Shown: positions 225-24,741 of the stretch, piece after piece
Layout of the letters: the number at the start of each line of letters is the position of its first letter
How positions within the stretch are numbered: the stretch's first letter is position 1
Assembly: GCA_003584895.1 (NCBI GenBank)
Contig: QVQF01000165.1
Location: 1 to 44,527, forward strand
Direction: 5' to 3'
Source of the DNA: Methylococcales bacterium
GTDB lineage: Bacteria; Pseudomonadota; Gammaproteobacteria; Methylococcales; Methylomonadaceae
Length of the DNA stretch: 44,527 nt
Translations under genes and position numbers: made by a program
The notes under the pieces: generated by a model
What the model was told of the DNA's origin: nothing
Databases searched by the model: none
Seen by the model: only the letters and a program-made list of their open reading frames with translations

Positions 225-397
225 TCTTCCTTTTCAACTTATTTACTAGTTACACTTAAACGTTTCGACATTACCTCGCACACCACTTTTGCATATGCAT
301 GAGGAACTATGCCTGAAGGAATCAAAACAATTAAAATCATTAGCGACCTTCTCATTCTTTCTGTTTTTTCGACTTACCTTAATTCAGCATATAAACA

Positions 398-817
398 CTA
401 CAATTTATATAGAAGATCATTTTCTTTATCATCTTTCGACTTGCCCTTACGATTATCTTGATCCATTCGTTCCTTGCCAAATTTTGCAATCATTTCTTCC
501 CAGCTAGAATACCCTTCATAACCCTTATATCCTGCTTGTTTTCGTTGTTCATATATTTCCTTCCCTAATGCAATAATTTCATTAGGTTTTTTACCATCAA
601 CTACAGAAAGAAACTCCTTATCATCTTTTTTTGCATCCCTTATTGTCCAAAAAGATACTTCAAACTCAATTCGTGCGTCTGTAGACAATCGATTTTTTAT
701 CGCCTTTACTGATCTATAGGCTGTTTTAGTATTATGTCCATTAACTTCCTCTCCCTTACCGCAAGCCAACAATGTAGCACAACCTAAAACAAGTAATAAT
801 GCAGGTAGTTTTTTCAT
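398..817 (-). CDS. small lipoprotein, possibly DUF6694-like
   Basis: A 139-residue protein with a lipoprotein signal: Lys-Lys near the N-terminus, a hydrophobic run, then LLAC with the lipidated Cys at residue 19. The mature part is hydrophilic, predicted helical and very charged, ending in a Lys/Asp-rich tail (about residues 116-135). The central stretch with DGKKPNEII resembles the small DUF6694-type lipoproteins, but I am recalling that pattern and have not searched it. The ATG start is supported by GAGG eight bases upstream. The gene stands alone between the rRNA promoters, which read the same way, and the divergent GTPase genes. Function unknown; a periplasmic or outer-membrane-anchored location is expected. 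Confidence 0.72.
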   Translation of the reverse strand: MKKLPALLLVLGCATLLACGKGEEVNGHNTKTAYRSVKAIKNRLSTDARIEFEVSFWTIRDAKKDDKEFLSVVDGKKPNEIIALGKEIYEQRKQAGYKGYEGYSSWEEMIAKFGKERMDQDNRKGKSKDDKENDLLYKL

Positions 818-908
818 AAAGATAACCTCGAAGCTGTATGTAGATTCATGTTATGGTATTTATAACGTTAGATCATTAAACAAAGTAAAATGATCGGATA
901 TTATAACC

Positions 909-2663
909 TTGAGCTATGCTTATATGTTGGAATTTATTCAATTATTAAATCTGCGCTACCAAACAATTTTAGGTCAATCAAACAACGATGCCTATAAAGT
1001 CAAATTTCAGCAACGCATTGAGCAACTACTCTTAACTGAAGCCTTTTTACGAAAGGGTCGACTCATTAATACTTCACCCAAGCAACCGCTCAACATTGCC
1101 CTATTAGGCCCTACACAGGCAGGCAAAAGCACCATTACTAATGTCCTTCTAAATAATAACTCGGCAGAAGTAAGCCCATTAGCAAGCTATACAGTACAGC
1201 CCCACGGTTTTTGTTATCAAATTACCATTGATGCTTGCGCTGGATTACAAAATTATTTTGGCCGCTTCCAACAACTACAACAATCAGATATTTCAAAAAA
1301 TCGCTACGACTGCTACTCGCTAAACGAAGTTACCTCAAACGCTCCTTTATTACCTAACTGCATACTTTGGGACACCCCTGACTTTGACTCCATAGACTCA
1401 TCAACTTATCGAGAAGGTGTTCTAAGAACTGCAGCTTTGGCTGATATTGTTATTATAGTTGTTAGTAAGGAAAAGTACGCCGACCAATCTGTTTGGGATA
1501 TGGTAACTATGCTTGAACCTTTACATCAACCCACAATTATTTGTTTAAATAAATTAAGCGAAGGCACTGAAGAACTACTAATTAATTCTTTAAAGGAAAA
1601 ATGGTTGCTAGCTAGGACAGATAATTTCCCTGATATAGTTCCTTTAATTTATCAAAAACAATCTGGCACACCTATCTGGCCCAAAGATCAACAAACACTA
1701 CTTAGAAAATTAGCTAAGCAAATTGATTACAAAAATCATGCTAAATTCGAACAAGATCTTCTAAAAAAATATTGGCAAGAGTGGATAGAGCCTATCATTG
1801 CTGAACATAAAGCTTTAACCAATTGGAAAGAGCTAGTCGACATTTGTATTTGTCATGCTACAGAAAATTATCAAAGTGACTATTTAGACCATCCTCATCA
1901 TTATGATACCTTTCAAAAAGCTCTTGCTGAACTGCTTAATTTATTAGAAATACCGGGCTTTTCCAGAATACTAACTGGCGTACGCAAAACAATTACTTGG
2001 CCAGCAAGGCAAATAATTAAATTTGGACGCAAGAAGCCACTTATCGCCGACAATAGCCAGGAGTTAACTTTATTAAATCAGCTTGCCGAACATGTTTTAA
2101 TACAACTAGCAGATAAGTTACTTGATTACGCAGAACAACCTCATCAAAGGTTTTGGTGGAAAGAATTTAGTCGCCTGTTACGTAGTCAACGGCAAAATAT
2201 TCTTGAGGACTTTACTTATGCTGCAAAAGAATACCATACCTCATTCCAGCAGGATGTCGAAGAAACGGCGCAACACTTATATATCAAGCTGCATGAACAT
2301 CCTTTCTTATTAAATAGCTTACGCGCAACTCGGATTACGGCTGATGCAGCAGCTATTGCCTTTACCTTACATATGGGAGGCATAGGAATACATGATTTTA
2401 TTTTTGCTCCAGCAATACTAACAATTAATGCCCTCTTAGCAGAAAGTGCTTTAGGTAATTATTTGCACAAAAGCGAACATAACTTAAAAAAACATCAATA
2501 TAATACCGTGAAACAGTCTCTCTTTATTGACAGCATTAGCTTAAAACTTTTAGAACTACCGAATCAATTATCGACAACAAACTATTTCAACATTTCGCCT
2601 GCTCAGTTAATCGCCGCAGCAAATAAACTTAACGAAAAACAACATGGACTACGACTACTCTAA
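909..2663 (+). CDS. dynamin/Era-type P-loop GTPase, first of a tandem pair
   Basis: A 584-residue protein with a GTPase domain near the N-terminus: P-loop GPTQAGKS (67-74), a candidate switch Thr at about 95, G3 DTPD (155-158) and a G4-like NKLS (214-217). The G4 lacks the usual Asp of NKxD, so nucleotide specificity may be relaxed. After a long, mostly helical region comes a Gly/Ala-rich hydrophobic stretch (about 479-516) that could be a membrane hairpin or paddle. This layout (G domain, helical stalk, hydrophobic segment) recalls bacterial dynamin-like proteins, but the exact family is not recognised. The start is either TTG at 909 or ATG at 924; neither has a strong ribosome site. The 3' end overlaps the next GTPase gene by 20 bases, suggesting coupled translation and a hetero-oligomer. 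Confidence 0.85.
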   Translation: MSYAYMLEFIQLLNLRYQTILGQSNNDAYKVKFQQRIEQLLLTEAFLRKGRLINTSPKQPLNIALLGPTQAGKSTITNVLLNNNSAEVSPLASYTVQPHGFCYQITIDACAGLQNYFGRFQQLQQSDISKNRYDCYSLNEVTSNAPLLPNCILWDTPDFDSIDSSTYREGVLRTAALADIVIIVVSKEKYADQSVWDMVTMLEPLHQPTIICLNKLSEGTEELLINSLKEKWLLARTDNFPDIVPLIYQKQSGTPIWPKDQQTLLRKLAKQIDYKNHAKFEQDLLKKYWQEWIEPIIAEHKALTNWKELVDICICHATENYQSDYLDHPHHYDTFQKALAELLNLLEIPGFSRILTGVRKTITWPARQIIKFGRKKPLIADNSQELTLLNQLAEHVLIQLADKLLDYAEQPHQRFWWKEFSRLLRSQRQNILEDFTYAAKEYHTSFQQDVEETAQHLYIKLHEHPFLLNSLRATRITADAAAIAFTLHMGGIGIHDFIFAPAILTINALLAESALGNYLHKSEHNLKKHQYNTVKQSLFIDSISLKLLELPNQLSTTNYFNISPAQLIAAANKLNEKQHGLRLL

Positions 2664-4251
2664 TTTAGTTAAAAAAACCCAGGCCTGGACTAATCAAGCT
2701 CATATATTAAACTGGATTAATAATGATATTATTACCCAGCTACGTGAACTTGACACTCCCACGTCAGAAACCTTATTTTCAACAGACGACATAGAATCAA
2801 GACCTCTTATAGTTGCCTTTATGGGCGGCACAGGGGTTGGAAAAAGTACATTACTTAACCGACTTGCTGGCAAAGCCATTGCTAAAGCAGGTGTCGAGCG
2901 CCCTACATCCAGAGAAGTTACTTTATTCCATCATCAAAAAATCACCATTCAACAACTTCCGAATTCATTACCGCTTGATGCAACTAACATTTGCCAGCAT
3001 CATGATGATTTACAAAAGAATATTGTTTGGATTGACATGCCTGATTTTGACAGCACTGAATCTAGCAATAAAAAATTAGTGCAACAGTGGCTACCTCATA
3101 TCGATGTGCTAATTTATGTAGTCAGTCCTGAACGGTACAAAGATCAAAAAGCATGGCAATTATTGCTTTCAGAGGGCTCGCAGCATGCTTGGCTATTTGT
3201 TTTAAATCAATGGGACAGAGGCCAGCAGGAACAATATAATGATTTTAATCAGCAACTTCATAAAGCTGGCTTTGTTAAACCCATCATTTTCAAAACAGAT
3301 TGTGTCAATTATCCACAATCCGATGAGTTTTCAGCACTAGAAGACTACATAACATCGTTATCAACAACTCATATAATTAATCAACTTGAACAACATGGCA
3401 CACAAGCTCGTAAGCTTGATTTAAGACAACAATTAATCTCTATTAAAAGCTCATTAGGCACTAGTCAAACCGTACAAAAAACACTTGACCTTTGGCATAC
3501 TCAATGGTTGCTTACAAACAAATTACTCAAAGAGGGTCTTGCTTGGCCCATGCAAAATCTTGCAGCTTATTCAGCCGAACACGCCACTGATGTAATAAAG
3601 CCAGAGACTAGCCCCTATTCTTCTCTTTGGGATAACTGGGCCGAAAGTCGTTTTGACGATGCTCTTAATGAATTTATTATTACAATCGACCAGCTAGAAA
3701 TCCCTGTTAGCCCATTTAAAAGAAACCTACAATCAATACGAAAAAATGCGCCTATAATCATCGAAACGCAAACCGAATTAGCGACTAGACTCGCATTAAT
3801 AAATCCAGGCAATGTATTGCAACGTACCTTTTTAAAAGGCACGCGCTTATGCGAACTCATATTGCCAATACTAGCTATGACATGGGTTGGTTATAAAGTA
3901 TTTATGGGATATTACACTAGTAATTTGTTAGAAAATCACTACCTAGGCATCGATTTTGCTATACATAGTGTATTACTAATCTCTTTAACTTGGCTTATAC
4001 CCTTTTTTATTCTAAAAAAAGCACAGCCTTCCCTAAAAACCAGTGCACTAAAAGGCCTCCACAAGGGATTACAACGCGCGCTTAACATCATAGAGAGTGA
4101 CGTTTCATTTGGCATTTCAACTATCATCGAACAACACAAAGCTCAATTAAATGAACTTTCAGCACTTATTGACCTTTGCAACACAAATACACTAGACCAA
4201 AATCTATCTATTAAAAGCGACAGCCCTTTAGTTCGAATGTTGATGAAATAA
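2644..4251 (+). CDS. dynamin/Era-type P-loop GTPase with two membrane segments, second of the pair
   Basis: A 535-residue protein. Motifs: P-loop GGTGVGKS (61-68), switch-I candidate Thr88 in ERPTSREV, G3 DMPD (131-134) and G4 NQWD (188-191). It shares with the upstream GTPase the unusual G3 context PDFDS, so the two are probably anciently duplicated, but it keeps the Asp in G4. Two hydrophobic segments lie at about 403-425 and 440-460, so it is likely an inner-membrane protein with its GTPase domain in the cytoplasm. Its ATG lies inside the end of the preceding gene. A TnpB fragment begins directly after its stop codon. Membrane remodelling, stress response or phage defence are possible roles for such proteins, but nothing in the sequence picks one. 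Confidence 0.87.
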   Translation: MDYDYSNLVKKTQAWTNQAHILNWINNDIITQLRELDTPTSETLFSTDDIESRPLIVAFMGGTGVGKSTLLNRLAGKAIAKAGVERPTSREVTLFHHQKITIQQLPNSLPLDATNICQHHDDLQKNIVWIDMPDFDSTESSNKKLVQQWLPHIDVLIYVVSPERYKDQKAWQLLLSEGSQHAWLFVLNQWDRGQQEQYNDFNQQLHKAGFVKPIIFKTDCVNYPQSDEFSALEDYITSLSTTHIINQLEQHGTQARKLDLRQQLISIKSSLGTSQTVQKTLDLWHTQWLLTNKLLKEGLAWPMQNLAAYSAEHATDVIKPETSPYSSLWDNWAESRFDDALNEFIITIDQLEIPVSPFKRNLQSIRKNAPIIIETQTELATRLALINPGNVLQRTFLKGTRLCELILPILAMTWVGYKVFMGYYTSNLLENHYLGIDFAIHSVLLISLTWLIPFFILKKAQPSLKTSALKGLHKGLQRALNIIESDVSFGISTIIEQHKAQLNELSALIDLCNTNTLDQNLSIKSDSPLVRMLMK

Positions 4252-4254
4252 TGA

Positions 4255-4437
4255 TTTTTAACATGCTCGTGCTGTGGCTTGATTAGCCAAAGTAGTCCGA
4301 AAGGTAGAGCAGGTTTGCGAATAAGAGAATGGACTTGTGCCGAGTGTGGCACTACGCATGATAGAGATATCAATGCAGCAAAGAACATTCTCGCGCTTGG
4401 GCATAAGCGTCTAGCAGTAGGAATCCCCGTCCTTTAG
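4255..4437 (+). pseudogene. tnpB: TnpB (IS200/IS605 or IS1341 type) C-terminal fragment
   Basis: About 60 codons in one frame, opened by an in-frame TGA at 4252-4254 and closed by TAG at 4435-4437. The peptide has the C-terminal signature of TnpB: CSCCG, REWTCAECG and HDRDINAAKNIL, that is the four-Cys zinc ribbon and the last RuvC-type Asp (in HDRD). Full TnpB proteins are about 350-450 residues; the N-terminal helical part and the first two catalytic acids are missing, so this is a remnant. It starts at the base after the GTPase stop codon, which suggests that the deletion joined the two. Confidence 0.85.
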
Positions 4438-4454
4438 GGCGGGGAGGATGTCAA
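4421..4454 (+). mobile_element. right end of the TnpB element (candidate omega-RNA 3' scaffold)
   Basis: A GC-rich hairpin overlaps the TnpB stop codon: CCCCGTCC (4425-4432), loop TTTA, GGGCGGGG (4437-4444), eight pairs including one G-T. It is followed by AGGATGTCAA. This is the standard right-end form of IS200/IS605-family elements, where TCAA is a typical end. In active systems the same DNA encodes the 3' end of the guide RNA, and the bases just beyond (about 4455-4474) would be the guide. No left end was found. The rest of the gap to 4626 shows no gene. Confidence 0.7.
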
Positions 4455-4626
4455 CTCGTCCTGCAGTGTATTAAGAAGTACCTTATAAAAAAATAACTCA
4501 ATATTGCACAATTTGGTTTCATGATTGAGCACTTAGGAATACCATTACGTGCGAGTGTTTGGGAATACATAAAAATAATTATCCCTGTCAATCACTCTAA
4601 CCAAAACATTTAATCGAGACGACTCA

Positions 4627-5859
4627 ATGGAAACTTATTTACCTCTTTTCAAAACCATATTTGCCGACTGGGTGCAATTAACAATAAACGAACCTTTATA
4701 TGCTGGAACACTAGCATTAATAGCGTGGTTACTGTCAGCATGTCTTTACAACATTAAGATCGCTTTTTTAAATAGACAATCTACTGCCAGAGAAAATGCT
4801 CGAATTGATGCCATCAATCAACTTAGTTCTGCACAATTACAAATGCAGGATATGCAGCAAAAACTCATTGAGAACAGTGAACAAATAAAAAAAGATCAAG
4901 AATGGAGTAAAAATGAAACAGGACGTGCCGCAAAATTAGAAGATCAGTTACAGGATCGAAACAAGCAAATAGCCGCTATTATTCAATCTTTCTCAACTAG
5001 CTTTGATCTTGGTGAACGCCCATTACCCCTAACTGAAGACCTAAAAGCAGAAAGTTTATGGCAACAATTTGATAGGACTATCCATTTATTAATCACTCGA
5101 TTACGCAATGAGCAAGAAACGAAGGCTGAATTACAAATAGCTCTTAAAGCTGAAACACTAAAAAGCACTGAAAATGAAGCGGCCATATCTAGACTGCAAT
5201 CAGGCATAGCCGCCCAAACCATTAAAATAGCTAACTTAGAACGCCTATTAGAAGAGCAAACATATACCCTACAGCAACAAGATCATGCACAACTGGTATT
5301 AGAACAAAGCTTGGTAAATAAACAAGTAGAAGTAGTCCAGAACAATAAAGAAACAATCTCCTTTTCAGTTGATAGCGAACCTTCTAATAATGAGCCTCTG
5401 ACTACTGCACCGCCTGAAATTATTGCTTCTACTGATCTCATTAGCGAACCCTTACCAACAACAATTACAAGTACAACTAAACCCACATTGAGCGAAGAAA
5501 TTACTGCACTACCACCTATCAAGTCCTCGAAAAACCAGCTGGGGAAATTCAAGAACCTTTTTGAAAAAACCTTGAAAAAGAAAGCAATTACCACACCAGA
5601 AATTATTACAGGTCAACAAACTGATTCGGTTATTCAACAAGTACAATTAGAGATAGCACCTGAGCCTGCGGCTATTAAGCTATCTAAAAGCCCACTTAAG
5701 AAAATGAAATACTATTTTGGTGAGGCAAAGCAAATCACAGAAACTAAACTCGACATTACTGAAGCCGCATCGGCACCACTAGTGACAGAGCCAGAGCCAA
5801 ACAGCTCGGCTAAACTCTCATTTGGTAAACTTAAAAGTTTAATCAGTAAATTGCCATAG
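4627..5859 (+). CDS. membrane-anchored coiled-coil protein with three basic C-terminal motifs
   Basis: A 410-residue protein not recognised as a named family. A single hydrophobic segment (about 25-47) is followed by long heptad-like, Gln/Glu/Lys/Leu-rich helices (about 50-125 and 155-245), so a coiled coil in the cytoplasm is likely. The C-terminal third is low-complexity (Pro, Thr, Glu) and holds three copies of a short basic amphipathic motif: NQLGKFKNLFEKTLKK (303-318), SPLKKMKYYFGEAK (355-368) and KLSFGKLKSLISKLP (396-410). It follows the GTPase pair on the same strand, separated only by the TnpB remnant, so it may once have been the third gene of that operon. GAGA seven bases before the ATG is a plausible ribosome site. 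A scaffold or adaptor for the GTPases is a guess. Confidence 0.8.
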   Translation: METYLPLFKTIFADWVQLTINEPLYAGTLALIAWLLSACLYNIKIAFLNRQSTARENARIDAINQLSSAQLQMQDMQQKLIENSEQIKKDQEWSKNETGRAAKLEDQLQDRNKQIAAIIQSFSTSFDLGERPLPLTEDLKAESLWQQFDRTIHLLITRLRNEQETKAELQIALKAETLKSTENEAAISRLQSGIAAQTIKIANLERLLEEQTYTLQQQDHAQLVLEQSLVNKQVEVVQNNKETISFSVDSEPSNNEPLTTAPPEIIASTDLISEPLPTTITSTTKPTLSEEITALPPIKSSKNQLGKFKNLFEKTLKKKAITTPEIITGQQTDSVIQQVQLEIAPEPAAIKLSKSPLKKMKYYFGEAKQITETKLDITEAASAPLVTEPEPNSSAKLSFGKLKSLISKLP

Positions 5860-5897
5860 GCTCTTAATTAAAACAGTAAACCCACAGCGACTTCGCT

Positions 5898-5973
5898 CAT
5901 ATAAAATAATCCACAGACTTGATGATTTTTACACTAACGTAAGTGAAGACTCTAATCTGTGGACTTTTATATG
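5898..5973. terminator. long imperfect inverted repeat between convergent genes, probable bidirectional terminator
   Basis: The left arm CATATAAAATAATCCACAGA (5898-5917) pairs with TCTGTGGACTTTTATATG (5956-5973). The arms match over CATATAAAA and TCCACAGA with one short internal loop. It lies between the 3' ends of the coiled-coil gene and cmoA, and the A/T-rich outer arms can supply a U-run in either direction. Confidence 0.6.
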
Positions 5974-6014
5974 TGGCCAGCTACTCTAAAACACTTCTGA
6001 ATTATTGTAGTCGT

Positions 6015-6755
6015 TTAACCCTTAACGGCTATTAAACAAGAAAAATTAAACCATTGAAAATAAGTACCACAGCGTGCAAAGCCTGCTCGCGCCAATATTT
6101 GATAGTTTTCATCTAAGCGATATGGAATTAATACATTTTCTAATGCTTCTCTTTTTCGCTGATTTTCAAGATCAGTGTATCCACTTTGAGACTTTTTAAA
6201 TTGCAGATAATGATCAATGTACAAGCGGTTCAGTAATGGATCATTATCCAGCGTTTTCTCAGATAATAAGAGCACTCCACCCGGCCTTAAAGCATCATAA
6301 ATTATTTTTAGTACCGATTCTCTATCGATAGGTCGAACAAACTGCAACGTCCAATTAACGATAACTACATCACAAGCAGGTATCTGCGGCAATCGATTGA
6401 TATCAGCAACTACCAATGATGCTCGACCTGCCCCTATCTGCTCAGACAATTTCTCACGTGCCTTATCCAACATAGACTCGGCATTATCATATCCTATAAA
6501 TCGAGTACTCTTAGGGCACAGTGGATGCTGACTTAGAACATCGATAGTGGTTCCCGTAGAACAACCTAAATCACAAACAACGCCATCCTGTTCAGGCAAA
6601 AAACTCATCACTAAATCGGATTGTATTCGTTGAATCTCATTATAAAAAGGCACGCTACGCGATACCATATCATCGAAAACCTTAGCGACCCGCTCGTCAA
6701 AAGTAAAATCTTCCACACGATCAGTCTGTTGAAACACTTTATCTTGTTCTTTCAT
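6015..6755 (-). CDS. cmoA: carboxy-S-adenosyl-L-methionine synthase
   Basis: CmoA converts S-adenosylmethionine and prephenate into carboxy-SAM, which CmoB uses to make the 5-oxyacetyl group of cmo5U at tRNA wobble position 34. The protein shows the family features: the N-terminal FTFDERVAKVFDDMVSRSVP block, the SAM-binding DLGCSTGTT motif, and a length of about 246 residues, as in E. coli. An in-frame ATG at 6806 would add 17 residues with no family counterpart, so I prefer the ATG at 6755 (MKEQDKVFQ). The usual partner cmoB is not next to it. It lies 96 bases downstream of the sugar-transfer operon and could be co-transcribed with it. Confidence 0.93.
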   Translation of the reverse strand: MKEQDKVFQQTDRVEDFTFDERVAKVFDDMVSRSVPFYNEIQRIQSDLVMSFLPEQDGVVCDLGCSTGTTIDVLSQHPLCPKSTRFIGYDNAESMLDKAREKLSEQIGAGRASLVVADINRLPQIPACDVVIVNWTLQFVRPIDRESVLKIIYDALRPGGVLLLSEKTLDNDPLLNRLYIDHYLQFKKSQSGYTDLENQRKREALENVLIPYRLDENYQILARAGFARCGTYFQWFNFSCLIAVKG

Positions 6756-6851
6756 GTTATGCCATTTTGTCACTGAACATGGGTTGCTTAAAGCTATGCA
6801 TGGCAATTAACTATACACAGCTAGTACCATTAATAATGAACCTTAAGTACA

Positions 6852-10478: not shown

Positions 10479-11798
<1,320 letters not shown>

Positions 11799-11840
11799 CT
11801 TCTAACAAATTAACAATATCGTTCATTAATTACCAGCTTG

Positions 11841-11901
11841 ATAACGACAAACTTATTGGTTAATCCTCTTTCCAAGGATACTGATATTAATTTGTCGTTA
11901 T
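11841..11901. terminator. inverted repeat between convergent argB and yggT, possible terminator
   Basis: Perfect 11-base arms ATAACGACAAA (11841-11851) and TTTGTCGTTAT (11891-11901) surround a 39-base interior that itself holds ATCCT/AGGAT around CTTTCCA. No strong T-run follows, so it may instead be a binding site or a fold-back remnant. Confidence 0.4.
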
Positions 11902-11992
11902 ACACACTTAAGCTTAGCCTTAGAATAGAGGCTTGCTAAATTCCTTACTAGCCAGCGATACATTCCTATACATCATTGAGACGCCAATCTAA

Positions 11993-12568
11993 TTAACCTA
12001 TCATGCTCGACAACTCATGTAGAGGCGGCAATACAACCATCTTGGCCATTTGTAACAATAACAAAGCGGCTAACGGTGATAAATCTATACCACCTAAATT
12101 AGGAATCATTTTGCGACAAAGATTCAGTATGGGATTAGACAATGCTTCTACAATAGAAGCTGCCGCATAAAAAGCGCCTGGATTCACCCAACTTAATACA
12201 GCTCTAGCAAATACCGAAAACACTAAGACGTTGAGCAGCAAGGAAATCAGCTGGGTCATTGATAATATAGCTAAGGCGCCAATATTGATGTTCACACCTT
12301 TGAGCAGCAATATGGAAAAATCAGCCGCCATTTGCAAACTTAACATCAGCACCAGTGAAGAACTGTCTATTTTGCCTATAGAGGGCACAAATCGACGCAT
12401 AATCCTTAAAGGAGGATGTGTTATCTTAACCAGAAACTGAGAAATGGGATTGTAAAAATCAGCCCCGCACCACTGCAATAAAAAGCGTAATAAAACCGCC
12501 ATAATATAAAGTGAACATAAGGTGTCGATTAAAAAAATAATGGGATCTGTCATATAAGTTGCGCCCAT
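11993..12568 (-). CDS. yggT: YggT family membrane protein
   Basis: A 191-residue protein made of two YGGT repeats, each with hydrophobic segments and a conserved pattern of the type LLRFLLQWCGADFYNPISQF ... ITHPPLRIMRRFVP (first repeat) and RAVLSWVNPG ... NPILNLCRKMIP (second repeat). It is an inner-membrane protein linked in the literature to osmotic protection and, in other bacteria and plastids, to division or haem-protein assembly; its precise role is not settled. It shares one base with the proC stop (TAATG), the usual proC-yggT arrangement, although the yggS gene often found with them is absent. An alternative ATG at 12553 would shorten it by five residues. Confidence 0.92.
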   Translation of the reverse strand: MGATYMTDPIIFLIDTLCSLYIMAVLLRFLLQWCGADFYNPISQFLVKITHPPLRIMRRFVPSIGKIDSSSLVLMLSLQMAADFSILLLKGVNINIGALAILSMTQLISLLLNVLVFSVFARAVLSWVNPGAFYAAASIVEALSNPILNLCRKMIPNLGGIDLSPLAALLLLQMAKMVVLPPLHELSSMIG

Positions 12569-18534: not shown

Positions 18535-21135
18535 ATGCCGAGGTTAACGAATATCAACATGGCTCATAATCATCCACCTCTACAAACAGCGACTGATTCA
18601 TTAACAACTGCTGAGTTTAATTTAGATGCCAGCATAGCCCATATCGCTCACTGGTTGCCAGCCCAAGGTCCTATTAAGGATTTTATACATCACAACACCT
18701 TACATGCCTTCCAGCACCATCCCTTTCATGAAGGCGTTGCTATTGCGGCCAAATTATTCGGTGCTCGCAGTTATTTACCGTTATCTGATTACCAAGCCCT
18801 ATACCTAGAAGGACGTATCAACAATGATGCTATTAGCTGGGCGATAGATCATGCCGACTGTAGCGCCGAGCAACAAGAGCAATTACGTAAAACCTTATTC
18901 GAAAAAGATGACATCGGTCATTACCCTCCAGCTTCACTGACGAATCATGGCATACGCAATGCTTGGTTAACTCAGCTTGAGGTGGATCTTAATGCTCTTG
19001 TTCATCCAATCTTGTTTCGCTTACTGAGTAACTATCTTGATCAGGGTATCAGTCGCTGGAGCTTACCTAATGATAAGGAATCATTCTGGGACTGCATAGG
19101 GCGCTTGGCTAGAAACAGCTTAATACCCTTGTATCCACTTAATGAACTGCACGTACAAGACCTATTAATCCAAACACCCGATGAGGTCATTGCCCATTGT
19201 TTGCAAAAAATAGTCGGCGATAGCGCATTCTTCGAACAATATCTCTTAGAAATGTTACTGGCTCATCCGGGTTGGTCAGGCATGGTTGGCGTTATTGAAC
19301 AAAACCCCAAAGCCTTACTGGCTAGACGTGATATTTCGCTTAAACAACTAATCGCCATAGAGTTACTCATGGAGTGGGCGTCTTTACTTAAGAAAAAAGG
19401 CCCGCACTTTGCTTGCATTGCAGAACTTGCCCACCCAGAAGGCACGCCTTTACTCAAAGAAGATGCCCTTAGCCCTAAAGTACCCTTACGCTTAAGAGTT
19501 TGGCATGAAGCCATGGAATGGTCTTTACATAGTGAGTTACTAAGCGCCTTAAAATCGAATAGCTCGCAATCTAGCCCCACAACGCCGACCGCTCAAGCCT
19601 TGTTTTGCATCGATGATAGAGAATGCTCGTTAAGACGCAACCTAGAAGAAGTCTATCCCGAAGTAGAAACTTTTGGTGCAGCCGGATTTTTCGGCATTGA
19701 TTTCTTTTATCAAGGTTTAGATGATGCCTATCCAGTCGCTCAATGTCCCAATATCATCGTTCCTAAACATTTAATTAAAGAATCTGCTGACACAGAACTA
19801 ACGACTAAAACCAGTAAAACACCCCATGGCCATTTTACCGCCCATACTTTATTTAGAGGCTGGTTATATACGCAAACCTTAGGATTGGGCTTTGCCGCTC
19901 GTATGGCTTGGGATGTGTTTAGGCCGGGCGCAAAATTGCCTAATATTCGTTCCTTAAGCGAAATTGATGCCCACTCGCAACTGCATTTACTTCGAGAATC
20001 TGAAGAACTTAATGAAGACGGCCATTTACTGGGCTTTTCGCTAACCGAAATGGCAGATCGTATAGGTGGCTTATTACGCAATATAGGTTTAACTCAACAC
20101 TTTGCACCGATAGTCGTGGTGGTTGCTCATGGTTCTAGCAGCGTTAATAACCCTCATTTTGCCGCTTATGATTGTGGCGCTTGTTCTGGTAAACCCGGCG
20201 CACCGAACGCCAGAGCCTTTGCTTGGATGGCCAATAATGAAGACGTACGCGCCATTCTAAGAGAACGCGGCATCGATATTCCTGACAGCACCCGTTTCAT
20301 AGCGGCTTTGCATAATACCAGCCGTGATGAAATCACTTATTTCGACCCCCATTTATTGGAACAACATCCAGCCACCGGTTTAGTAGAATTTCAAACCGCC
20401 ATGACTATAGCCCTAGAGCGCAATGCCGCAGAACGTTGTCGCTGGTTTGAGCTGGCACCTATTCAACAAAGTAATGCGGTTGCCCATGCTCATGTCAAAG
20501 AGCGCACTATGTCTATCTTTGAACCGCGCCCAGAATACAACCATTCCAACAATCTGTACGCTATCGTAGGCAGACGGCAATTAACGCGTGACTTATTCAT
20601 GGATAGACGTGCCTTTTTGCATTCTTATGATCCCAACACCGATGGCCAAGGCGAAGTCATGGCGCGTATTTTATCGGCGGTCATTCCTGTGTGCGGCGGC
20701 ATTAATTTAGAATATTTATTCTCACGCATCGATAACTCTGTTTATGGAGCGGGTACTAAACTGCCGCACAATGTCATCGGCTTACTGGGCGTTGCCAACG
20801 GTGTCGAAGGTGATTTACGTACCGGCTTGCCACAACAGATGATTGAAGTTCATCAACCCGCACGCTTATTGATTGTGGTCGAACAAACCCATGACATTAT
20901 GGACAAAACCATCGCTAGATTAGGCGAGCTTAAAGAATGGCTAGATAACGAATGGGTTAGGCTAGTCGCCTGTCATCCCGAAAGCCATCAGCAGTTTCTA
21001 TATTCGGCCAAGGGCTGGGAGGCCATTGAGCTTCCCGACGATGCCTTAGTACCGTCTTCAGAGCAATCGGCTAGTATCTTGGCGGGGCAAACTAAAACCA
21101 TACCGGTACATCACCTGACTCGGAGTCTAGCATGA
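18535..21135 (+). CDS. dabA: inorganic carbon transporter subunit DabA (DUF2309)
   Basis: DabA is the cytoplasmic carbonic-anhydrase-like subunit of the DAB system, which captures CO2 as bicarbonate in a one-way, ion-gradient-driven step with the membrane subunit DabB. The 866-residue protein keeps the whole zinc site: Cys358 and Asp360 in FCIDDRE, His532 in VVAHGSSS, and Cys547 in YDCGAC. This matches the Cys/Asp/His/Cys set described for Halothiobacillus DabA, offset by only 7-8 residues. The start is ATG 18535 or ATG 18559 (MAHNHPPL). The stop overlaps the dabB start by four bases (ATGA). In autotrophs DAB feeds carbon fixation; in a methylotroph it might supply carboxylation reactions. 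Confidence 0.94.
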   Translation: MPRLTNINMAHNHPPLQTATDSLTTAEFNLDASIAHIAHWLPAQGPIKDFIHHNTLHAFQHHPFHEGVAIAAKLFGARSYLPLSDYQALYLEGRINNDAISWAIDHADCSAEQQEQLRKTLFEKDDIGHYPPASLTNHGIRNAWLTQLEVDLNALVHPILFRLLSNYLDQGISRWSLPNDKESFWDCIGRLARNSLIPLYPLNELHVQDLLIQTPDEVIAHCLQKIVGDSAFFEQYLLEMLLAHPGWSGMVGVIEQNPKALLARRDISLKQLIAIELLMEWASLLKKKGPHFACIAELAHPEGTPLLKEDALSPKVPLRLRVWHEAMEWSLHSELLSALKSNSSQSSPTTPTAQALFCIDDRECSLRRNLEEVYPEVETFGAAGFFGIDFFYQGLDDAYPVAQCPNIIVPKHLIKESADTELTTKTSKTPHGHFTAHTLFRGWLYTQTLGLGFAARMAWDVFRPGAKLPNIRSLSEIDAHSQLHLLRESEELNEDGHLLGFSLTEMADRIGGLLRNIGLTQHFAPIVVVVAHGSSSVNNPHFAAYDCGACSGKPGAPNARAFAWMANNEDVRAILRERGIDIPDSTRFIAALHNTSRDEITYFDPHLLEQHPATGLVEFQTAMTIALERNAAERCRWFELAPIQQSNAVAHAHVKERTMSIFEPRPEYNHSNNLYAIVGRRQLTRDLFMDRRAFLHSYDPNTDGQGEVMARILSAVIPVCGGINLEYLFSRIDNSVYGAGTKLPHNVIGLLGVANGVEGDLRTGLPQQMIEVHQPARLLIVVEQTHDIMDKTIARLGELKEWLDNEWVRLVACHPESHQQFLYSAKGWEAIELPDDALVPSSEQSASILAGQTKTIPVHHLTRSLA

Positions 21136-23009
21136 ACGGCTTAATTTTAACCAGCTTAGCCTTGCCTTTGCTGGGCTTTATCTTAATTTTCTTATCGGAT
21201 AGCTATGAGAAAAGAATTGCTCGCATTAGTTTTTGGTGTACTCATGCCATGGGCTTAAGTTTAGTCGGCCTATTGTTAACTTGGGCCAGTGCCGGTTTTC
21301 CTAGCCATGAATACGCCTGGTTTACTTTATATGAGACTAGCGACTACCGCTTTCCGATTTTATTTTATTTGGATAAAATCGGCGCGGTGTATCTATTCAG
21401 TGTTTGGGCTATTTTTTCCATTATCGTCAAATATTGCCGAGTCTATTTACACCGCGAAGCAGGCTATCAGCGCTTCTTTATGACCATCTTTAGTTTCGTG
21501 TTTGGGCTGAATATAGTGATCTTGTCTGGCTCTATCGACATACTATTTGCTGGCTGGGAAATTGTCGGCATCTCCTCATTTTTGTTAATCGCTTTTTATA
21601 GACACCGCGTACAACCGGTACGCAATGCCTTACGCGCTTATACGATTTATCGCTTCTGTGATCTAGGCTTATTATTAGGCGCCTGGCTCAGCCATTTGTT
21701 ATTCCATGAAAGCCAACGCTTTAGCCAATTGGCTGAGTTATTTAGCAACCCCGCCTTACCTCCTGCGGGTTACGCGGCGCTTTTATTAGTATCAGCCCTT
21801 ATACTGATTGCGGCCATGGGTAAGTCTGCGCAATTTCCGTTCTGCTTTTGGTTGCCCAGAGCCATGGAAGGCCCAACCCCTTCTAGTGCTATTTTTTATG
21901 GGGCTTTATCGGTGCATTTGGGCGTGTTTTTATTACTGAGAACACTGCCGATCTGGTCATACTATTATTTGCCGCGTTTTATGGTGTTCATCATCGGCTT
22001 ATTGACGGTGATCGTAGCCAGTGTTTCTGAAAAAACCCAGTCCAACATCAAAGGCCAAATCGCTTACGCCTCGATTACTCAGGTTGGCTTTATGTTTATG
22101 GAGTTGGCGCTAGGCTTAGAATCTTTAGTACTGGTACATTTCTTTGGTAATGCCTTTTTACGTTGCTATCAACTACTGGTCTCGCCTTCTATCGTAGTAC
22201 ATTTACTGCGCGTAGAAAGCGCTACCGATGCCGACTTTAACATCAACAAAAGCCCATTATTCCGCTTCTTGCCAGAGTCTTTACGCCACACCGTACCTGA
22301 GGTTTTACAAAATAGCTTGTATGTATTTTCTTTGCAAGAAGGCCAGTTAGAAATGCTAGTGCGTGCGGTATTATGGTCGCCGCTAAAAAGACTAGGTTCA
22401 AGTATTAACCGGATGTCAAGCACCGACAAAGTGCTGTATAGCTTGGCTGGATTTGCCTTGGTTGAAGTGCTGTTACTGACTTTCGGTTTCGATCAAAGCT
22501 ATGTCGCCTTACCACTATCGGCACTCATGGTGCTCATTTCTTTAGGCGCTTTCAGTGAAAAACACAGCCCTTATAAAGTTTGGCATGCCATAGGTGCGAG
22601 TTCTCTTTTAGCCGGCCTTGCCATCTGTTTTTTAAATCCAGAAGCTTGGGCAGATGTGTTGTTATTTGCCAGCGGCATCGTACCAGCTTGGATTTTAGGC
22701 ATCATCGTGCTGTCAAAACTACTCGAAAACGATGTCTTTGCTGATAGACCGTTTACTTATAGAGCCTTTGCAGAAACCCAACCGACACTATCCATATTGT
22801 TATTTGTCAGCTTTTTAGGTTTGGTCGGCTTCCCTATTTCACCCGCGTTCTTAGGTGAAGATTTATTACTGTCCCACGCCAGTAACTTTGGCCCTTGGTT
22901 TGCACTGCCTTTAACCATAACCTTTGTCATTAACGGCATCGCAGCGGCACGGGTTTTTCTACGCTTATGTATGGGCAGACCTACGGAACTTAGAGATAGC
23001 CAGCAATAG
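21132..23009 (+). CDS. dabB: inorganic carbon transporter subunit DabB (NuoL/antiporter-like)
   Basis: A 625-residue polytopic protein of the proton-conducting antiporter family (NuoL/MrpA-like). It carries the key charged positions of that fold: Glu in AGWEIVGISSFLL and Lys in MGKSAQFPFCFWLPRAMEGPTP. It is the membrane partner of DabA and would let protons (or sodium) flow to drive bicarbonate formation. Because no nuo or mrp genes are nearby and it overlaps dabA by four bases, assignment to complex I is unlikely. The hydrophobic segments run through the whole length, with no frameshift. Confidence 0.93.
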   Translation: MNGLILTSLALPLLGFILIFLSDSYEKRIARISFWCTHAMGLSLVGLLLTWASAGFPSHEYAWFTLYETSDYRFPILFYLDKIGAVYLFSVWAIFSIIVKYCRVYLHREAGYQRFFMTIFSFVFGLNIVILSGSIDILFAGWEIVGISSFLLIAFYRHRVQPVRNALRAYTIYRFCDLGLLLGAWLSHLLFHESQRFSQLAELFSNPALPPAGYAALLLVSALILIAAMGKSAQFPFCFWLPRAMEGPTPSSAIFYGALSVHLGVFLLLRTLPIWSYYYLPRFMVFIIGLLTVIVASVSEKTQSNIKGQIAYASITQVGFMFMELALGLESLVLVHFFGNAFLRCYQLLVSPSIVVHLLRVESATDADFNINKSPLFRFLPESLRHTVPEVLQNSLYVFSLQEGQLEMLVRAVLWSPLKRLGSSINRMSSTDKVLYSLAGFALVEVLLLTFGFDQSYVALPLSALMVLISLGAFSEKHSPYKVWHAIGASSLLAGLAICFLNPEAWADVLLFASGIVPAWILGIIVLSKLLENDVFADRPFTYRAFAETQPTLSILLFVSFLGLVGFPISPAFLGEDLLLSHASNFGPWFALPLTITFVINGIAAARVFLRLCMGRPTELRDSQQ

Positions 23010-23127: not shown

Positions 23128-24741
23128 ATGAAACTTACCAAATTAACACTGGCTATGCTGACAGCATTAATGGCCAGCGCCTCCTTTGAAGCTGCCGCTA
23201 TCGACCTCTATGTCGATACCACAACCGAACAACTTTTCGCAAAACCTGGCCCTGGTCGCGTGCTGATGGGTTCGTTTGAAAAAACCGGTAGTGCACCTAC
23301 AGCAAACAATGCCATAGCCGCTAGCACTGCAATAGAACTTAAAGCGATACGTGAAGACTTGGCTGTAAAAACTAAGGACTTGGCCGATAAAACCAAAGAA
23401 ATTAAATCACTATCAGAACAAGCGGCCGTAGCCGCTAAACCGGATGCTGTTAAGGTGTCCCTTAAAGACGGTCTTAAATTTGAAACTAACGATGGTAACT
23501 TCACCACTGAAATTCATGGCCGCGTGCAAGTCGATTCTCAAGAAAATGTCAATCAACAATTACATAATTCCTTTTTAACACCGGGAGGCACTCCGGCGGC
23601 ACTAGATAATTCTGTCGGCCTACGTAGAGCCCGCTTGAGCATGGAAGGCACGATTTATAAGAATGCTGATTATAAACTGGAATATGATTTTACCCGTGGC
23701 ACTACTATTGCGGGCGGCATTACTGATGCTTGGGCACGTTATAACTTCTCTAAACCTTTATCGGTAAAAATAGGTTCTTTTAAAGAGCCCTTAACCTTAG
23801 AAGATACCACCAGCGATATTCAAACCTCATTCATCGAACGCAGCATGGCGGTTAATGCCTTTGTTGATAACCTTAATGTCTTTAAAGTCGGTATTGGTGC
23901 TAACTATTCTGCCGAGCGCTGGTTAGTGGCCACAGGATTACAGACTCAAGGGCCAGGTAGCTTTAATAGCACAACATTACTTGACTCACCCAGTGCAAAC
24001 AACCAATCAGCGACCGGCAATACTCAGTGGGAACTGAATGGCAGAATCGCTGGTACGCCTTGGATGGCTAGTCCCACTCAATTGGTACATGTCGGTGGTT
24101 GGGGTTCTTACACCAGCGTAAATAACAACTTAAATGGTAATGGCACTGTTGGTAATGGCGGTGTTGCCTTTGGTTCGGCACTCGGTAGCAATATGGACAG
24201 AACAGCCGTATTAACGACTGGTAATTTATCGTCAACCGCCGTCGGCGGTAATATTGCTACAGCCTATAATCGCTTTGGTGCAGAAACGGCTGTGGTTTTA
24301 GGTCCTTTTTCAGCACAGGCTGAGTTTTTACAAACGAATGTCAGTGGTAATGGCTATAGTAATAATGCCTTGACCGGTTACTATGGGTATATGACTTACT
24401 TCTTAACCGGCGAATCTCGTAATTATGTCACACGTACCGGTGCTTTTGATCGGGTTAAACCTAAGCATAATGTTGATATGAATGGCGGTATGGGTGCTTG
24501 GGAATTACTGGCTGGTTTTGATGAGTTAAACTTACGTAGCGGTGACAAGATCAATGGTGGAGTGGCCGATTTAGGTAAGCTGGGTGTGAACTGGTACTTT
24601 AACCCGCGCATACGCTTAATGACTAACTATGTGCATGTCTTTAATATTAACAGCACCGGTGTTACCAATAATACAACGACGCCCGCTTTTAACAATGCCA
24701 AGCTTGATATGGTAGAGTCACGCGTACAGCTAGACTGGTAG
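23128..24741 (+). CDS. phosphate-selective porin O/P-like outer-membrane porin
   Basis: A 537-residue outer-membrane protein. The signal peptide ends at about Ala24 (AAA-ID). An N-terminal coiled-coil stretch (about 66-100, repeated KxKDLADKTKEIKSL) may trimerise or contact peptidoglycan. The barrel starts near 118 with FTTEIHGRVQVDSQ and LRRARLSMEGTIYKNADYKLEYDF, which is typical of OprP/OprO-like porins, and the protein ends in the aromatic LDW. Substrate is uncertain: phosphate or another anion. It sits just downstream of dabAB, so uptake of an anion such as bicarbonate is an attractive but untested idea. Long Asn/Gly/Thr-rich loops (around 320-420) look variable. Confidence 0.88.
   Translation: MKLTKLTLAMLTALMASASFEAAAIDLYVDTTTEQLFAKPGPGRVLMGSFEKTGSAPTANNAIAASTAIELKAIREDLAVKTKDLADKTKEIKSLSEQAAVAAKPDAVKVSLKDGLKFETNDGNFTTEIHGRVQVDSQENVNQQLHNSFLTPGGTPAALDNSVGLRRARLSMEGTIYKNADYKLEYDFTRGTTIAGGITDAWARYNFSKPLSVKIGSFKEPLTLEDTTSDIQTSFIERSMAVNAFVDNLNVFKVGIGANYSAERWLVATGLQTQGPGSFNSTTLLDSPSANNQSATGNTQWELNGRIAGTPWMASPTQLVHVGGWGSYTSVNNNLNGNGTVGNGGVAFGSALGSNMDRTAVLTTGNLSSTAVGGNIATAYNRFGAETAVVLGPFSAQAEFLQTNVSGNGYSNNALTGYYGYMTYFLTGESRNYVTRTGAFDRVKPKHNVDMNGGMGAWELLAGFDELNLRSGDKINGGVADLGKLGVNWYFNPRIRLMTNYVHVFNINSTGVTNNTTTPAFNNAKLDMVESRVQLDW

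Follow-up and report, generated by a model that had tools for sequence, protein, structure and literature searches.

Two adjacent, putatively dynamin-like GTPase genes conserved as a pair in methanotrophs of the order Methylococcales

Three genes follow each other on the forward strand of a contig of a Methylococcales bacterium (GenBank assembly GCA_003584895.1, contig QVQF01000165.1, positions 1 to 44,527; this whole stretch of 44,527 nucleotides is called the window). A first-pass annotation, made from the letters alone, presented them as a candidate uncharacterised system formed by two different membrane GTPases, here A and B, and a coiled-coil protein, C (Table 1). Do these three genes belong together, and what kind of system would they form? 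Comparison with other genomes and with predicted folds indicates that A and B are a real, conserved pair, most likely of an established kind, the paired bacterial dynamins, and that C is a neighbour restricted to one lineage. We estimate at roughly 0.78 the probability that the two proteins form, as its subunits, a GTPase pair of the bacterial dynamin-like type.

The pair recurs with great regularity. We have compared the window's own genome and 60 relatives of its order (61 genomes), a class sample of 274 genomes (own included) and a phylum sample of 299. In the order, A was found in 52 genomes and B in the same 52, six of them (G001, G014, G020, G022, G037 and G050) with one of the genes partial, mostly at contig ends. 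As far as the contig pieces show, the two genes are adjacent in 51 of the 52. The pair was not found in the other nine genomes, namely all five of family f7, both of f8, G007 (65% complete) and G010 (96% complete). In the class sample, an identical set of 20 genomes gave long matches to A and to B; one of these 20, G120, is weak and partial in both. The genes lie side by side in all 20 except G317, where 2.4 kb separate them (locus L147, 7208-9624), and in G126 the A gene is divided over two contigs. Other matches in the class sample (51 genomes for A, 67 for B) were short, fell with one exception in the GTPase-domain half and were left uncounted. Altogether, the families with the pair are 12 in the class sample and four more in the order. 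In the phylum sample the window's genome was alone at E 1e-10; the rows listed there all come from the same class, so this sample says little about other classes, and the frequency observed for the pair depends on the sample. Among named relatives (the best 80 of 350 stretches encoding one) nearly all are titled as methanotrophs, including Methylobacter, Crenothrix, Methylovulum and metagenome-assembled genomes of Methylococcaceae or Methylococcales, with one titled just gammaproteobacterium.

The 20-base overlap between A and B that the first-pass annotation described agrees with the coordinates of the open reading frames (ORFs), and it is repeated in all but one of 78 named loci in which it was measured; these are close relatives and not independent. 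Distance trees of A and B correlate with r = 0.94 over 35 genomes and have 20 of 32 splits in common, as would also follow from shared ancestry alone. These data support the inheritance of A and B as a pair of two different GTPases in tandem, one that looks chromosomal and stable in its order. Within the interval of L147 there are reading frames of 634 and 160 amino acids (aa) on the opposite strand, the shorter of which we take, by eye, to be peroxiredoxin-like. Apart from this, contig C311 of G254 (58% complete, of the family of G120) holds at 3037-3369 a lone stretch similar to B residues 390-505 (E 2e-8), with no A.

Both proteins carry the motifs of GTPases. Reading of the window proteins gives GPTQAGKS (A) and GGTGVGKS (B) at G1, WDTPDFDS and IDMPDFDS at G3 and NKLS and NQWD at G4, just as annotated at first: two distinct GTPases that have PDFDS in common at G3, one with an altered G4 that lacks the Asp and the other with an intact one. 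Conservation was counted in two 37-row alignments, one for each protein. G1 and the D.PD.DS of G3 were invariant in both, the N-K of the A G4 was kept in 37 of 37 rows and so was the N..D of the B G4; the motifs are therefore not due to chance. An invariant Thr in A is a candidate G2. The G4 Asp is missing from A in 34 of the 37 rows, and this suggests unequal roles for A and B. NKxD is retained in L134, L141 and L147, and a weak relative (L149) has NKCD at this place when read by eye. These sequences suggest that loss of the Asp may have taken place inside the family. A regulatory role for the subunit with the altered G4, as first proposed, is possible, and some relatives keep the Asp.

The hydrophobic region late in each GTPase was also confirmed. 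Using 19-residue windows scoring over 1.0, we located it at residues 471-514 in A and at 395-424 and 428-462 in B, and A has weaker stretches at 161-184 and 333-351. AlphaFold models were built from alignments of 67 rows for A (relatives 55-83% identical to the window protein) and 70 for B (52-79%). In both, a GTPase domain leads into long helices, and two consecutive helices contain the hydrophobic stretches; the predicted hydrophobic tip helices of A span residues 460-483 and 489-510. When the models were compared with the Protein Data Bank (PDB) by Foldseek, the first nine matches of B were BDLP, the Campylobacter jejuni pair of dynamin-like proteins (DLPs) and IniA (best E 2e-9), while for A the first five places went to BDLP and to the C. 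jejuni pair, with E 6e-9 at best. Bacterial dynamins thus outrank single-domain GTPases for both proteins. Tandem co-inheritance and the nearest predicted folds together support the bacterial dynamin-like type first suggested for these genes: they are in tandem, overlap and co-occur, and their predicted architecture is a GTPase domain plus long helices with hydrophobic stretches.

Profile searches give a mixed picture, and several observations weigh against this assignment. Of the profiles named in the first-pass annotation, MMR_HSR1 is passed by both proteins and is the best Pfam match of each, Dynamin_N is passed by B (34.4 against a cut-off of 27 bits) and missed by A (21.8 against 27), and DUF697 (YcjF) is absent among the Pfam matches of either up to E 1. 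There is no solved dynamin among the PDB profile matches of A or B at E 0.01, and the matches present are short GTPase-domain or P-loop stretches, chiefly of the Era, Der and RbgA type; sequence is little conserved among bacterial dynamins in general. The confidence of the two predicted models is middling, with a predicted local distance difference test (pLDDT) score of 78.7 and a predicted template modelling (pTM) score of 0.70 for A (579 residues), and 74.8 and 0.55 for B (535 residues). Furthermore, the listed bacterial dynamins give low template modelling (TM) scores, 0.22-0.38 when normalised by query length, and root-mean-square deviations (rmsd) of 16 to 40 Å, and the Foldseek alignment columns count gaps and so are not a measure of coverage. 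By hhalign the likeness of A and B is limited to the GTPase domain (170 columns), and they are therefore not recent copies of each other; in the window genome the B GTPase domain is the only other match of A. Finally, in one near-complete genome (G057, loci L046 and L047) some 0.8 Mb separate A from B. The A frame of this genome also has a 446-aa N-terminal or upstream extension with no Pfam match at E 0.01, which may be non-coding.

Part of this evidence would also fit two membrane-linked GTPases of the Era/Der kind that serve as a pair in housekeeping or in stress, and whose C-terminal helices are not a true dynamin trunk. The best Pfam match, the PDB profile matches and the low TM-scores with high rmsd all point in that direction. 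We consider it improbable, in view of the Foldseek ranking of both proteins, the long predicted helices and the hydrophobic stretches. Scores for the Era and Der equivalog models listed also fall far short, reaching 32 bits at most where the cut-offs are 116 or higher (for B, among the best 25 of 41 matches). The poor superposition on known dynamins may come from hinged, partly uncertain models, and the dynamin-type trunk is a putative one. Two other proposals are very unlikely as stated, and since each is a possible use of a dynamin pair, their probabilities overlap with that of the dynamin-like reading. A system of phage defence, or of another mobile element, built on dynamin-like proteins is compatible with that reading, and DynA of Bacillus subtilis confers phage resistance according to PMC8844932. 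The LeoA and LeoBC models of the PADLOC defence library weakly match A and B; the best stretches (E 8e-9 to 5e-4) do not go beyond the GTPase domain, and there is no full-length match. A gave no match in 72,556 plasmid records, 50,697 phage records or viral contigs, and B, searched in the plasmid collection but not in phages or viral contigs, gave one, to an actinobacterial record, over 31% of B at 28% identity. No mobile context was found in these searches, the pair is present in most genomes of its order and its neighbours are ordinary chromosomal genes, for example in five loci a pair named from sequence as presumably UbiA-like and ComF-like. The hint of phage resistance in the first-pass annotation is thus unsupported.

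The pair might instead be the machine that builds the stacked intracytoplasmic membranes of methanotrophs, in keeping with its wide presence in the order and with its absence from f7 and f8. PF02461, the family of methane or other monooxygenases (pMMO/AMO), was matched in 3 of the 20 class genomes with the pair and in 6 of the other 254 (p 0.02, uncorrected for relatedness), and the window genome has two PF02461 fragments. However, 17 of the 20 lack a match, six of the nine class genomes with PF02461 lack the pair and six of the seven f7 and f8 genomes carry PF02461, as a methane or another monooxygenase. We consider a role in these membranes highly unlikely; it fails at the class level.

We found a different situation for C. 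As first described, it is a single-pass protein on the same strand after B, with one hydrophobic stretch near the N-terminus (residues 18-50). It begins 375 bases after B and is next after B also in six close relatives, which could suggest that A, B and C act as one system. However, C was found in 34 of the 61 genomes, all of a single genus (34 of its 35), and it is next after the pair in just seven (the window genome, G002, G017, G019, G023, G025 and G030). In a single-contig genome, G018, it lies about 2.5 Mb from A and B. In the remaining 26 it is on another contig or the pair was not found, and most of these are drafts in which the distance cannot be read. In three loci that we read, C sits amid other genes of its own. 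It is present in six of the 80 named loci, probably the same six assemblies and hence not independent. The first-pass annotation had set recurrence of the genes together as its test; A and B do recur together, and C does not co-occur with them. The trio as a conserved unit is refuted by the restriction of C to one genus and its separate neighbours, and joint action of the three is extremely improbable. The length of C is variable, with open frames of 352 to 597 aa in relatives, one cut piece aside, and C adjoins the pair in one sub-lineage of its genus only.

Adjacent dynamin genes are common in bacteria (PMC6104087 and PMC4159319). The closest parallel is Cj-DLP1/Cj-DLP2 of C. jejuni (PDB 5owv and 5oxf), a tandem pair of dynamin-like GTPases that, according to PMC6104087, forms a 2:2 tetramer tethering liposomes. 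By fold it comes first for A and ranks with the top matches for B, but its identity to them is about 12-14% and profile searches at E 0.01 gave no match to it. Cj-DLP1 also carries an extra domain described in PMC6104087 as Campylobacter-specific. Nostoc BDLP1/BDLP2 have the fold of bacterial dynamins (BDLP 2j69 heads the matches of B) and, according to PMC4159319, tandem genes as in A and B; their identity is about 12% and the TM-scores are low. IniA/IniC of mycobacteria and DynA of Bacillus are paired or fused dynamin-like proteins (PMC6104087 and PMC4159319). The structure of IniA is matched by B at E 2e-8 and by A at E 2e-5. DynA is one fused chain, whereas each of the 53 order or class loci and 78 named loci in which both genes were measured has A and B in separate frames. 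LeoA of enterotoxigenic Escherichia coli (structure 4aur) is a lower Foldseek match for A. Unlike A-B, the LeoA/LeoBC locus has its first gene split in two and lies on a pathogenicity island (PMC4159319), and PMC6344628 reports a LeoA-like gene of Pseudomonas beside an integrase. An open-access literature search for methanotrophs and dynamin found nothing on A and B, which are apparently unstudied there. By word search, the main text of a Methylococcus capsulatus CRISPR interference screen (PMC13108547) mentions no dynamin or GTPase, and an article on phage-shock proteins (PMC11237479) has no dynamin.

By analogy with these systems, A and B are most likely a hetero-oligomeric remodeller of the inner membrane. 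The two hydrophobic helices of B would form a hairpin that holds it in the inner membrane, and A would contact or dip into the membrane by a shallower hydrophobic hairpin. We infer a heteromer on the cytoplasmic side, in which the GTPase domain of A would dimerise with that of B, and the binding and hydrolysis of GTP would swing the helical trunks so as to tether, curve or fuse the inner membrane, with a possible role in envelope upkeep or repair. Judging from its G4, A is probably less selective for guanine and may depend on B. Few cellular roles are known for bacterial dynamins, and a methanotroph from which A and B have been deleted could reveal the function of such a pair. The G4 Asp, mostly lost in A and kept in a few lineages, provides a simple test of the division of labour.

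Two other genes are steadier neighbours of the pair than C. One codes for a small lipoprotein, divergent beside A in 77 of the 80 named loci. In two of the three exceptions, L165 and L178, only 130 and 58 bases lie between the A start and the end of the contig; in the third, L152, the matching assembly G023 has a stop in frame. Relatives of this gene are found in 50 of the 61 genomes. In families f1, f2, f3 and f5 they stand beside A, whereas those of f4 and f6, with 27-38% identity, are located elsewhere. The DUF6694 cut-off was passed by two of six members scanned and the window copy fails; its product has LLAC, a lipobox-like motif. The second is a DUF2959 (PF11172) gene, located upstream of A on the same strand in 57 of the 80 named loci, at 536-860 bases, with the lipoprotein gene between them in all 57.

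DUF2959 comes much closer in family f6. In all five genomes a gap of 50 to 158 bases separates the end of the domain from the match of A, and in the three loci measured by reading frame (L048, L052 and L068) the distance from the DUF2959 frame to the A start is -1, 2 and 15 bases. In these three loci the frame thus abuts or overlaps the A start (in L048 it lies at 11365-12057, reverse strand), and this is the strongest hint of a functional partner. In the window genome DUF2959 is on a different contig from A and B, behind genes that, from their sequence, we presume to be purA-like and hflKC-like. It is found in 13 of the 20 class genomes with the pair and in 22 of the other 254 (Fisher p about 1e-8 by genome and 1e-7 by genus, uncorrected for relatedness). 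The pair occurs without it in seven of the 20, and DUF2959 occurs without the pair in those 22 and in both f8 genomes; neither is therefore bound to the other. Sequence comparison of DUF2959 with the PDB gave nothing better than E 0.6. Its protein, encoded just upstream in many relatives and elsewhere in the lineage of the window, would be a candidate accessory, and A and B give this little-studied family a testable partner. A doubtful extension is that a coiled-coil DUF2959 recruiter or shaper (PspA- or BAR-like), the G4-degenerate A, the hairpin-anchored B and the divergent, periplasm-facing lipoprotein might form a gammaproteobacterial envelope-repair machine unlike the pairs described.

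Table 1 Features of the locus (positions in the window)
Feature	Position	Strand	Remarks
Gene A, probable dynamin-like GTPase	924..2663	+	579 aa; G4 without Asp; ORF listed 909-2663
Gene B, probable dynamin-like GTPase	2644..4251	+	535 aa; G4 NQWD; Dynamin_N above cut-off
Overlap, end of A and start of B	2644..2663	+	20 bases, from the ORF list
Gene C, single-pass coiled-coil protein	4627..5859	+	410 aa; judged outside the A-B system, a lineage-specific neighbour
Small lipoprotein gene, DUF6694-like	398..817	-	139 aa; divergent from A

Regarding the limits of A, its end is that of the listed frame, and its start is probably farther in. The TTG at 909 is less likely than the ATG at 924 that codes for residue 6 of the listed frame, because the alignments of most relatives begin there. 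A promoter and terminator scan of positions 300-6100 found no more sites than in shuffled sequences (18 against 17.6 and 2 against 3.8). The next gene after C (6015-6806, reverse strand) codes for a CmoA-type methyltransferase; one CmoA model was passed (205 against 193.3 bits) and another failed (144 against 285). Farther along the window there are a DabA inorganic-carbon transporter gene (18535-21135), an NADH-dehydrogenase-L-like gene that scores under the model cut-offs (21132-23009) and a Porin_O_P gene (23128-24741).

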